A stretch of DNA of 64,000 nt, taken from assembly GCA_002839605.1 (NCBI GenBank), contig PGYK01000001.1, positions 310,001 to 374,000 of the forward strand. The letters are read 5' to 3'. Positions 35,378 to 55,049 of this stretch are shown one piece after another; the first letter of the stretch is position 1; each line of letters starts with the position of its first letter. The notes under the pieces are model-generated. The model searched no databases. It saw only the letters and a list, made by a program, of their open reading frames with translations, and was not told the DNA's origin. This stretch comes from Methanomicrobiales archaeon HGW-Methanomicrobiales-3 (GTDB taxonomy: Archaea > Halobacteriota > Methanomicrobia > Methanomicrobiales > Methanospirillaceae). Position numbers and translations under genes: made by a program.

Positions 35378-35462
35378 CCGAATCCATCCTCCCTTAACCC
35401 CGCTCTCTTAAATGGGAGGAATGAAAGACATTTTTATCACGAGCAGCCTGGAAGGGACAATC

Positions 35463-35903
35463 ATGGAGCCACTTGAGAACCGGATCGCGCGACTGACAAC
35501 GGAGCAGCAGAAGGAAGTTATGGACTTTGTCGATTTTCTTTTGGTGAAGAACACGTTAAAGCAGGGCCCGGCAAATCCCATCCCCGCTCCAATACGGGGA
35601 ACTTCTCCTCCTGTGCTGGTTTCGGACATCCCCTGTACTCAATCGAGGGACTGCCCTGTGGAACCCGACTCGTGGTCCCTTAACAATCCTCACTCTTGTG
35701 CTCCGCACGGGGAACCAACACCTCCCGTCATCCACGAGATCGGGGGTGGAAGCGATGATACCATCACCCGCGAGTATCTGGATTACGGCTCGTTTACCAT
35801 GGTGGCCCCTCCAGAAAAAGAAATGCAAAGAAAAGGCAGACCGCAGGTTATTGCACGGGAAGGGAAGGAGAATACCCGGCATATCCTTGAGTGGGTTGAG
35901 TAA
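35463..35903 (+). CDS. DUF2281-like small protein
   Basis: 146 residues from ATG 35463, preceded by GAAGGGA; ATGs at 35412 and 35421 are in frame. The N-terminus MEPLENRIARLTTEQQKEVMDFVDFLL is the helical DUF2281/VapB-like pattern often seen in small antitoxin-like proteins. The remaining 110 residues are proline-rich and disordered-looking with two cysteines, and no partner toxin is adjacent. Function is unknown. Confidence 0.6.
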   Translation: MEPLENRIARLTTEQQKEVMDFVDFLLVKNTLKQGPANPIPAPIRGTSPPVLVSDIPCTQSRDCPVEPDSWSLNNPHSCAPHGEPTPPVIHEIGGGSDDTITREYLDYGSFTMVAPPEKEMQRKGRPQVIAREGKENTRHILEWVE

Positions 35904-35932: not shown

Positions 35933-37222
35933 CTAGTACTGCCGGTACGGGAGCAGTTTATCCACGACACTCCTCTCTTCCCCTGAGTGGAGGATGACAA
36001 TTACCTGGATGCGATCCGTTCCCCGCGTTCCCTGCAGCTGCACCGTTGACAACCGCTGGTTGAGGTTGAGCCGCCCCTCAGTAACTGTGCCGTCGGAACG
36101 GGTCAGAACCACCCGGTTGTCCCTGACGAGCCCGGTCCCCGGGCCGCCATTGAACTGGATGTTGACCAGAGCTTTTGAGGAGTCCTTGCTCACATCGAAA
36201 TACAATTCGGTGTTCTTTTCCATTGTCCGGGTTGGTACAATGGTCAGAATCACGGTATCCACACGTGCCTCGGAACTACGGTAATAGTCCGTTTCTGACA
36301 TGCCGCCATAATCCGGCCGCACGGGTAAGGGGTTACTGGTATTGGGCAGCAGTTCCTGTTGCGGCGGGAATACCAGAACCGCGATGATCAGCAGGGCAAC
36401 AACAATGCCTGCACCGATGAGCATCCAGGACGAAAATCCTGCAACACGGGCAGGAACCGGATTGGATTTTTTGGGCGTTTTTTCCGGCACGGTTTCCGAA
36501 ACCTCTTTCTTTTTGGGGGCTGAAGGGGGCAAAACCGGCACCGGTTGAGTCGGCGCGGGAGTATTGGTTGCGCGGGTGTCTTCTGGTGGCGGGGGCGTTT
36601 CTTCAGTTGCAGGCATGCGGTTAAAAACCGGTGCACCACAGGTTTCGCAGAATTTTATCCCGGGGGAAAGGGGTGCCTGGCATGCGGGACAACTGGCAGT
36701 ACGGAGATCCGGCCCCCCCACCATATGCCCATCCCCCCCTGCCTTTCGTTCAGCTGTGGCATGGGCCAGACATGCTACCGGCGATGTGTCCGTACCGATG
36801 ATACAGTCAATCGTCTTTACCAGGAGTTCGATATGACTCTCGATCGGGGGTGTAACAGCATCGAGCCAGTGCGGGACGCTGATGAGGTACTCCATGGATT
36901 TGGATGGCTCCACGTCCTCGATGCGGAAGGGAATGATGATCCGGCTCTTGTTCACCGCATTGGTCAGTTCCCGCATGACATGCGGTGATTTGTTTGCATA
37001 AGAGGAGAAGATGACAACAACAACTTTTCCCCCCTCAATGCCTTCGATGATTGCTTCAGGAAAATTTTTGCCGGGAGGGATATCCCGGGGCGCAATCCAG
37101 CAGCGAATCGCGTGCGCCTCAAGTTTTGCGCAGACCGCATCGGCAATAGGTTTGTCTTCCTGGGCGTAGCTTATGAAGACATCGTGGTGGTCCTGTTTTC
37201 TCTCCGGCTGCCCTTCTGACAT
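35933..37222 (-). CDS. Membrane-anchored TIR-domain protein
   Basis: 429 residues. A TIR domain occupies about 11-135: DVFISYAQEDKPIADAV, then RCWIAPRDIPPG, and MRELTNAV with E85 at the position of the NADase glutamate in catalytic TIRs. A zinc ribbon follows (C178, C181, C192, C195), then a proline-rich linker and one membrane helix (about 266-285). The C-terminal about 105 residues form a domain also found in the lipoprotein at 54567. This gives a cytoplasmic TIR and an outside sensor domain. The gene lies 68 bases downstream of the RyR-domain gene on the same strand. Predicted activity: NAD+ cleavage or NAD-derived signal production (inference). Confidence 0.85.
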   Translation of the reverse strand: MSEGQPERKQDHHDVFISYAQEDKPIADAVCAKLEAHAIRCWIAPRDIPPGKNFPEAIIEGIEGGKVVVVIFSSYANKSPHVMRELTNAVNKSRIIIPFRIEDVEPSKSMEYLISVPHWLDAVTPPIESHIELLVKTIDCIIGTDTSPVACLAHATAERKAGGDGHMVGGPDLRTASCPACQAPLSPGIKFCETCGAPVFNRMPATEETPPPPEDTRATNTPAPTQPVPVLPPSAPKKKEVSETVPEKTPKKSNPVPARVAGFSSWMLIGAGIVVALLIIAVLVFPPQQELLPNTSNPLPVRPDYGGMSETDYYRSSEARVDTVILTIVPTRTMEKNTELYFDVSKDSSKALVNIQFNGGPGTGLVRDNRVVLTRSDGTVTEGRLNLNQRLSTVQLQGTRGTDRIQVIVILHSGEERSVVDKLLPYRQY

Positions 37223-37290
37223 ATCTCTGTCCCGGCCGATGACGTTGTATTGCCGTCAGCTATCGGTTGGTAGTGTGGGTTATGAGATTA

Positions 37291-38412
37291 TTAGTATTTG
37301 CCCTGTTCCAGACGGATGATCTTCAGGTACACCTTTGCGAGGATAGCAGGAAGGGCACGGACCGCATTCCGGTCCTTCTCACGCTCCACTTCGGGAAGTT
37401 GATCCCACGGGATAATGCAGTTGTGGATCTTCTGCTGGTCATCGCGGACCCTTCCGTAGACCCATCCTTTTTTCAATCGTTCCGCCATCCATTGCTCGTG
37501 CTCCCGCTCCGACAAGAATTCAACCTCGCTTTCAGTGAATGCAAAGAGTGGCTCCCGGCTGTCTGTCGAGAGGGCAATCGAGCAGTTGATCGTATGGAAG
37601 GCTCTCCAGATATCCTCAACCTGCCGGAGATTAGACTCTTTGAGCCTCCGGGGAAGTTCGTCCCAAGGGCGCATTGAAAGATTCGTTTCCGGTGTTTCAC
37701 CCGCCTTTTTCTGCAACGCGATATATTCTTCATGGATTGCCCGGGCAACCAGTTCATGGGTCCCGGCAGCACCGATGTCGTAATATTTCCGGATGATATT
37801 CCGGACTTTCTCTGAATCGATCCACCCCCGGTCGATCTGGGTGATGAGGTCGTCTATCTCCCGCGCCCGTGCCTGGATCTTTTCTGCGATCTCTCTCTCC
37901 TCAAGAAGATCACACAGCCCGACGATGGCAGTGAGCGGGTTGCGCAGGTGGTCGCCCAAAATGGCGAACTGTTCGATGTTCTTCTCGATCTGGGAAAATG
38001 CAGTTTTTTTGAGCTCTTCCATCTCGATCGTATCGGTAATATCAAGGCCGTACAGGTAGATAACGCAGGTATCCAGAGCGGGATCCTTATGCCGGAGCAC
38101 GGTGTACCGGATCACTTTTCTCTCGCCATCGATCCCCTGCACCGGGTGGATGATGCCGGATCGCAATTGCCCGGTCCCGATCACATCGCGGATGTCATCC
38201 ATCACCCTTTCGGAATCCGCGGGAAAGAGATGCCGGATATTCCATTGTGTGCCCCCGGGAGCCTGCCCTCCCATGAATTCATTGAATGCCCGGTTCGACC
38301 ACTCAACGATCCCTTCAGGTTTCAGGATAAGTACCCATTCGGATACTCCGTCAAGGGCATCGGTGGATGGTCCGGTAGTGCCGGTTGGCTGTTTTATCAT
38401 TTTCTCCCCCAT
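37291..38412 (-). CDS. PAS - dimerisation helix - RyR domain signalling protein
   Basis: 373 residues. A PAS domain (about 18-130) is followed by a HisKA-like dimerisation segment with a conserved-type His (GDHLRNPLTAIVGL, H155). There is no histidine-kinase ATPase domain. The C-terminal about 140 residues match the prokaryotic RyR (ryanodine-receptor) repeat: VARAIHEEYIALQKK, PWDELPRRLKESN, EREHEQWMAERLKKGW, then IIPWDQLP and EKDRNAVRALPAIL. The protein could sense a cytoplasmic cue through PAS and bind a nucleotide-like ligand through RyR. It lies just upstream of the TIR gene. Confidence 0.85.
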   Translation of the reverse strand: MGEKMIKQPTGTTGPSTDALDGVSEWVLILKPEGIVEWSNRAFNEFMGGQAPGGTQWNIRHLFPADSERVMDDIRDVIGTGQLRSGIIHPVQGIDGERKVIRYTVLRHKDPALDTCVIYLYGLDITDTIEMEELKKTAFSQIEKNIEQFAILGDHLRNPLTAIVGLCDLLEEREIAEKIQARAREIDDLITQIDRGWIDSEKVRNIIRKYYDIGAAGTHELVARAIHEEYIALQKKAGETPETNLSMRPWDELPRRLKESNLRQVEDIWRAFHTINCSIALSTDSREPLFAFTESEVEFLSEREHEQWMAERLKKGWVYGRVRDDQQKIHNCIIPWDQLPEVEREKDRNAVRALPAILAKVYLKIIRLEQGKY

Positions 38413-38547
38413 GCTTCGTTGTGGATAGTATCCGCAAGCTATTATCTAATAATATCTGTTGCCGTAGGGGGTGTGCAACACTACCACGATTTCGATAAAA
38501 CCCTTCGGGCCCAAAAAAAAGGATGCCGGGAAAGGAAGAAGATACGC

Positions 38548-38584
38548 GAAAAGGAAATGGACAAAGGCGTGGATTTGAACCCGT
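38548..38584 (-). pseudogene. tRNA-Ala 3'-end remnant
   Basis: On the minus strand ACGGGTTCAAATCC is followed after 8 bases by GTCCATTTCCTTTTC. Both pieces occur in the same order at the 3' end and trailer of the intact tRNA-Ala about 95 bases away, but the T-stem and acceptor no longer pair. It is a degenerate partial copy, or a leftover attachment-like duplication. Just upstream on the same strand is a GCGAGGGC-GGA-GCCTTCGC hairpin. Confidence 0.55.
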
Positions 38585-38656
38585 CAAATCGCGAAGGCTC
38601 CGCCCTCGCACCCGTCACGACCTCACGGTCCTGGAAGAAGGTAACAGAAAAGGAAA

Positions 38657-38728
38657 TGGACTCGACGGGATTTGAACCCGTGGCCTTCACGTTGCAAACG
38701 TGACGATCTACCCCTGATCTACGAGCCC
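38657..38728 (-). tRNA. tRNA-Ala (anticodon TGC)
   Basis: 72 bases fold as a full cloverleaf on the minus strand. The acceptor is GGGCTCG/CGAGTCC with one G-T pair. The anticodon stem TCACG/CGTGA has loop TTTGCAA. The T arm is ACGGG-TTCAAAT-CCCGT. The discriminator is A, CCA is not encoded, and there is no intron. Confidence 0.96.
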
Positions 38729-54566: not shown

Positions 54567-55049
54567 ATGAAAGATACCATAAAAATCTCCGCTGTCGTCC
54601 TGCTGGTTGTCTGTGCGCTTCTGGCAGGCTGCACGAGCCCGACAGCATCCGAGCTGAAGCCCGCGGAGACGCCGGTCCCAACCCCGGTCCCGACACCCGT
54701 CTCAACCTCCGTTGCTACCGTTGTTGCAACACCTGACGCAGTCGAGACCCTTCCGGCAGAGCAGTATGTGGACCTCACGCTCCAGAAGCAGCGGCCGGAC
54801 TCGTCTATCCACCTGCTTTACAATGGCGGCAAAGGGGAGATCTATGTCCAGAACATCTTCATGAAGGTCACCCTTTCGAACGGCAAGGTTATCGAGCAGT
54901 ACATGAACGACGGCAACCGGAGACCCCGGCGCGGGGACGAGCTGGTCATCGAGGGGACCCGGGGCACGGACCAGGTGCAGGTTTTTGTGACCTCGGCCGG
55001 CCGGACCTACAAGGTCCGGGATGAACCCCTTATCCTCTCCTACCTCTGA
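54567..55049 (+). CDS. Lipoprotein with the C-terminal domain of the TIR protein
   Basis: 160 residues. The signal peptide carries lipobox LLAGC with Cys22; a Pro/Thr linker (PTPVPTPVSTSV) follows. The about 95-residue C-terminal domain resembles residues 323-426 of the TIR protein at 35933: VxL/VxLTI, NGGKGEIYV vs NGGPGTGLV, VTLSNGKV vs VLTRSDGTV, then GTRGTDQVQVFV vs GTRGTDRIQVIV. The domain is therefore extracytoplasmic and shared. No known family is recognised. Confidence 0.8.
   Translation: MKDTIKISAVVLLVVCALLAGCTSPTASELKPAETPVPTPVPTPVSTSVATVVATPDAVETLPAEQYVDLTLQKQRPDSSIHLLYNGGKGEIYVQNIFMKVTLSNGKVIEQYMNDGNRRPRRGDELVIEGTRGTDQVQVFVTSAGRTYKVRDEPLILSYL

Follow-up and report, generated by a model that had tools for sequence, protein, structure and literature searches.

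The window considered here, a stretch of 64,000 nucleotides of methanogen DNA, has on its minus strand two adjacent genes that form a putative transcription unit. The first of the unit (37291-38412, 373 amino acids; P0002) encodes a protein with a PAS_4 domain (residues 20-128), HisKA/DHp helices (147-201) and two RyR lobes (approximately 215-370). The product of the second (35933-37222, 429 amino acids; P0001) has a TIR domain (14-122) followed by a zinc ribbon (175-197), a proline-rich linker, a membrane span at about 267-285 and a C-terminal domain that is probably extracytosolic. The gap between them, 37223-37290, is of 68 bp, and the order, RyR gene and then TIR gene, is kept with gaps of 0-224 bp in orthologous loci, of which L152, L153 and L159 are from Methanoregula. 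A preliminary description of this DNA had the adjacency on one strand and the 68-base gap right, both ORFs being where it placed them, and also the membrane anchor of the TIR protein, for which a hydropathy scan gives the span just mentioned. The PAS-dimerisation-RyR layout that it proposed for the other protein is borne out by Pfam matches to PAS_4, HisKA and RyR, with the amendments that RyR comprises two tandem lobes and that HisKA comes without an ATPase domain; to its account of the TIR protein, which stands as regards the TIR and the span, the zinc ribbon and the outside domain have to be added. The 2.59-Mb assembly has just one RyR gene.

On one side the pair is bordered by a gene for tRNA-Ala(TGC) (38657-38728, minus strand; identified by ARAGORN, Rfam and synteny), and on the other by a DUF2281-like gene (35412-35903, plus strand), a core gene outside the system that is found in genomes both with and without the cassette. 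Near the tRNA gene, at 38534-38661, a 29-nt direct repeat (86%) surrounds a stretch resembling the 3' half of a tRNA, for which neither ARAGORN nor Rfam made a call, and this is a possible integration scar. The block that is conserved through the genus and its neighbours is DUF460-thiL-DUF2281-tRNA-Ala(TGC)-tRNA-Ala(CGC)-TFB-PHP-SRP19-HypB, where the names thiL, TFB, PHP, SRP19 and HypB come from a reading of the sequences. Between DUF2281 and tRNA-Ala(TGC) the TIR-RyR pair is present in seven genomes, and in another, G029, it adjoins DUF2281 with the contig end falling inside the RyR gene. Nine genomes have the site empty (95 bp in G031), as does G072, which carries the pair together elsewhere, while in G083 the TIR gene is at the site with the RyR gene on a different contig (the split RyR and TIR orthologues are at L114:9168-10292(+) and L191:4462-5625(+)). 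From these occupied, cleanly empty and relocated states it follows that gains, losses and moves have mostly affected the two genes together. Flanked by a tRNA gene, present in some genomes and absent from others, and set in a block of core genes, the cassette is not a recognised defence island, and the immune role that the preliminary description suggested is for this locus conjectural.

The RyR part matches PF02026 at 3e-18, with 66.3 bits against a curated cut-off of 27.4, and Pfam also gives HisKA at 1.3e-8 and PAS_4 at 2.3e-5. An AF2 model of the protein has a mean pLDDT of 88, mostly >90 in the RyR part, and with it Foldseek finds Bt-hRyR and human RyR3 Repeat12, a binder of ADP/AMP-PCP/ATP-type nucleotides that has been solved with ADP or ATP. 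Four residues of the second lobe, H305 (codon at 37498-37500, minus strand, counted from the start at 38412), W308, H330 and D347, correspond to H75, W78, H100 and D117 of the phage protein RyDEP with identical spacing (0, +3, +25, +42). All four are invariant in nine orthologues of the window type; in an alignment of 51 RyR domains H305 never changes, W308 and D347 hardly do, and the H330 position is variable. The first lobe retains the histidine, as H227, but has Asn261 at the place of the Asp347 of the second lobe, and because of that substitution it may be a non-catalytic lobe. Is the protein a histidine kinase? Pfam gives no match to HATPase_c, whose place is occupied by the RyR lobes, and His155, the H-box phospho-acceptor, is Gln in two orthologues (L106 and L102), so that phosphotransfer is unlikely to be essential and a functional histidine kinase was rejected. 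On these sequence grounds the HisKA/DHp helices are probably a dimer scaffold between PAS and RyR rather than a kinase. Viral contigs, scanned with P0002, yielded no relative, and a viral source of the window gene was set aside.

The TIR domain matches TIR_2 of Pfam at 3e-23. Its Glu85, in MRELTNAV (codon at 36968-36970, minus strand, counted from the start at 37222), had been placed where NADase TIRs have their catalytic glutamate, and this has held up well: a phmmer alignment to PdTIR (3h16) puts it on the glutamate of KEL, and it does not vary across an alignment of 34 TIR domains encoded near RyR genes, in which identity to the window's domain is as low as 20-28% for some. The AF2 model (pLDDT 90, pTM 0.85) has as its best PDB matches the NADase TIRs SARM1, SPARTA and AbTir, with plant TIRs also among the best. 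For the C-terminal domain Pfam and the PDB gave no match. Its relatives, in the same genome, are short ORFs with a lipobox-like N-terminus, for which reason the domain is probably extracellular. One lipoprotein-like ORF, at 54567-55049 on the plus strand of the window, has a C-terminal part related to it. An outside domain, a membrane span and a cytosolic TIR would make a Toll-like layout in reverse order.

How far does the association of RyR with TIR extend? PF02026 is uncommon, being found in 28 of 149 relatives and in 21 of 393 genomes of the phylum. Yet in those 149 relatives TIR_2 occurs within 4 kb of 25 of the 37 RyR sites, against an expectation of about 0.22 derived from TIR numbers and genome size. 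With that disparity, and with the recurrence of the pairing in other phyla, chance adjacency is rejected, and the conservation of the neighbourhood beyond the species, on which the preliminary description had proposed that its idea be judged, is thus strongly evident. TIR_2 is carried by 26 of the 28 genomes with RyR versus 27 of the 121 others (Fisher p = 2.9e-12, phylogeny ignored), and within the genus by 12/12 versus 6/27 (p = 4.7e-6, phylogeny again ignored). Over 31 pairs RyR distances correlate with TIR distances (Mantel r = 0.40, p = 1e-4), a relation that common descent could also cause. The taxa concerned are Methanomicrobiales, Chloroflexota (five loci), Bacteroidales and an alphaproteobacterium, and the pairing involves no fewer than three architectures of the RyR protein and several of the TIR protein: the PAS-HisKA-RyR with TIR-TM of the window, a membrane-anchored TrkA_N-RyR with TPR-TM-TIR, TrkA_N-RyR with a short TIR and an AAA protein, and AAA-RyR, its RyR protein having an N-terminus that by eye is PfkB-like, with TIR. 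Two further RyR genes, on an Arcobacter plasmid and in an acidobacterium, adjoin DUF4062, a TIR-like NADase family.

Several arrangements met on the way deserve a record of their own. A four-gene unit of a 192-amino acid protein, an AAA ATPase with a PADLOC match to IetA (3.7e-35), a short TIR and TrkA_N-RyR (L092:137-2610, L093:4815-9192, L094 and L095) recurs in several Methanoregula genomes. RyR proteins of 860-900 amino acids with an AAA region and an N-terminus that looks kinase-like by eye (L105:8204-10801(-), L147, L155, L158, L160, L169) often adjoin a TrkA-RyR gene, and L147, L155 and L169 have a TIR nearby too. On the Arcobacter plasmid (L179:4823-8546) an NAD-binding protein, a split RyR protein and the DUF4062 TIR-like NADase are encoded in a row, and on a Priestia plasmid (L180:590-8874) a gene for a 95-amino acid RyR protein comes directly after a nucleotide cyclase gene, with a Pycsar-type effector and a TIR protein nearby.

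What might the RyR lobes be for? A 2026 preprint on phage proteins is the key precedent. RyDEP, a single R12 domain that forms a homodimer, binds and cleaves 2'/3'cADPR via H75, W78, H100 and D117, with H75/D117 as the catalytic dyad; six of eight further phage RyR homologues bind the same compounds and none of the eight cleaves them, despite high sequence conservation; and phage RyR proteins counter Thoeris (PMC13232231). The link of RyR to an NAD-derived ligand had been put forward in the preliminary description as conjecture, and it is now backed by this separate biochemistry on phage RyR proteins, whose ligand residues are all kept in the window protein. The reading preferred here, with a probability of roughly 0.55, is of a two-gene signalling cassette in which TIR would be the maker and the RyR protein the receiver of an ADP-ribose-type messenger. 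The membrane-anchored TIR protein would take a cue, perhaps with the outside domain or else through clustering, and with Glu85 would produce from NAD+ a messenger of the ADP-ribose type, 2'- or 3'-cADPR for example. That messenger would be bound by the RyR lobes of the partner via H305, W308, H330 and D347, a step suggested by conservation of the pocket and by phage homologues, for which alone it has been demonstrated. Occupancy of those lobes, which take the position of the ATPase domain in a histidine kinase, would alter the PAS-DHp dimer, and the dimer may relay its state by protein contact and not by kinase chemistry. A sensory role for RyR is supported by sister systems in which it forms fusions with membrane proteins of TrkA/RCK type or with a SpoIIE phosphatase, which fits an input domain with varied outputs; one of them (L118:1547-3475(-)) joins sensor and output directly, in an RyR protein that ends in a phosphatase domain of SpoIIE type. 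Against the maker and receiver proposal, the phage proteins that bind cADPR have one domain each and counter TIR signalling, the H330 equivalent is kept in only 18 of 26 TIR-linked RyRs, G083 has its two genes on different contigs, and the window RyR protein is without an obvious effector domain.

That last point, no effector domain being recognisable by Pfam, also suits an opposite role. The RyR protein could be an off-switch that clears the TIR product, either as a RyDEP-like glycosidase or as a sponge, under the control of the PAS cue, and the pair would then be toxin/antidote-like or a couple that makes and breaks a signal. It is a serious rival, even if we put its chances at about one in four. 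RyDEP hydrolyses 2'/3'cADPR, its dyad is retained as H305/D347 and phage relatives work against Thoeris, but the failure of eight well conserved phage homologues to cleave means that residue conservation is no predictor of catalysis, and the RyR-SpoIIE and TrkA/RCK-RyR fusions beside TIRs resemble sensors with outputs. A signal flowing in the reverse direction, with the RyR-PAS protein acting as sensor, of an adenine nucleotide or an infection cue, and activating a NAD+-depleting TIR effector, is distinctly less probable than that. The nucleotide binding of human RyR3 Repeat12 would accord with it, as would the sensor-type PAS-DHp nature of the partner and the fact that in SAVED-TIR, which is the best PADLOC match, and in SPARTA systems TIR is the effector; but the TIR protein here is membrane-anchored with an outside domain of its own, a receptor-like layout, and RyR pairs with TIRs also where RyR has its own membrane/RCK output. 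That the two are functionally unconnected neighbours, or hitch-hikers at an insertion hot spot beside a tRNA gene, is very improbable, for though the site is downstream of such a gene and variably occupied, the linkage recurs at unrelated loci, in other phyla and with different architectures, and G072 keeps the pair together away from its empty site.

How new is this? PADLOC (2023) and NCBIfam (2026) have no match for a TIR-RyR system; for the RyR protein PADLOC gave none, and NCBIfam TIR models were far below their cut-offs. In the literature searched, a signalling link between RyR and TIR appears in one report only and there for phage proteins only (PMC13232231). Any novelty of the pairing is taken as provisional, with no claim to priority. 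A broader and more tentative generalisation, held at somewhat under even odds, is that of a widespread prokaryotic class in which TIR makes a cyclic ADP-ribose-type messenger, a cellular RyR is its receptor and the outputs are interchangeable, PAS-DHp here and TrkA/RCK membrane proteins or SpoIIE phosphatase elsewhere. The receptor classes for TIR messengers are few, SLOG and macro, and if the idea is true there would be another beside them, and the carriage of RyR decoys by phages would be explained. cADPR modulates animal ryanodine receptors, with its place and manner of action long disputed. If the idea is true, RyR Repeat12 modules would have been receptors of cADPR before there were animals, and archaeal and bacterial RyR domains would be small soluble models for how such modules read it.

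Comparison with what is known brings out both kinship and distance. RyDEP has the same RyR/R12 fold and the same H, W, H, D ligand residues, but it is phage-encoded and single-domain, and the window protein is cellular, chromosomal and beside a TIR, with two lobes fused to PAS-HisKA. The DUF4062 'Swarozyc' proteins (PMC13174449), a TIR-like NADase family, are likewise found beside RyR genes, whereas the window has a classical TIR_2. With PAS histidine kinases there is in common PAS plus HisKA, and many methanogen proteins match closely over residues 110-218, but the ATPase domain and a constant phospho-acceptor histidine set those kinases apart. In Thoeris the TIR protein ThsB makes cADPR or His-ADPR, to which ThsA responds, and the pair recalls it in having a TIR with the glutamate of NADases and, encoded beside it, a protein of nucleotide-binding fold. 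However, the partner here is PAS-HisKA-RyR and not the SIR2-SLOG (type I) or macro-domain (type II) ThsA; with no ThsA-type gene adjacent, membership of Thoeris through ThsA was rejected, and the Thoeris models of PADLOC and NCBIfam match the window proteins weakly or far below cut-offs. There is kinship also to Repeat12 of the animal ryanodine receptor, which matches in sequence, in fold and in nucleotide pocket residues; the animal protein is a calcium release channel, in contrast to the channel-free window protein, and it is the sister systems that have membrane/RCK parts.
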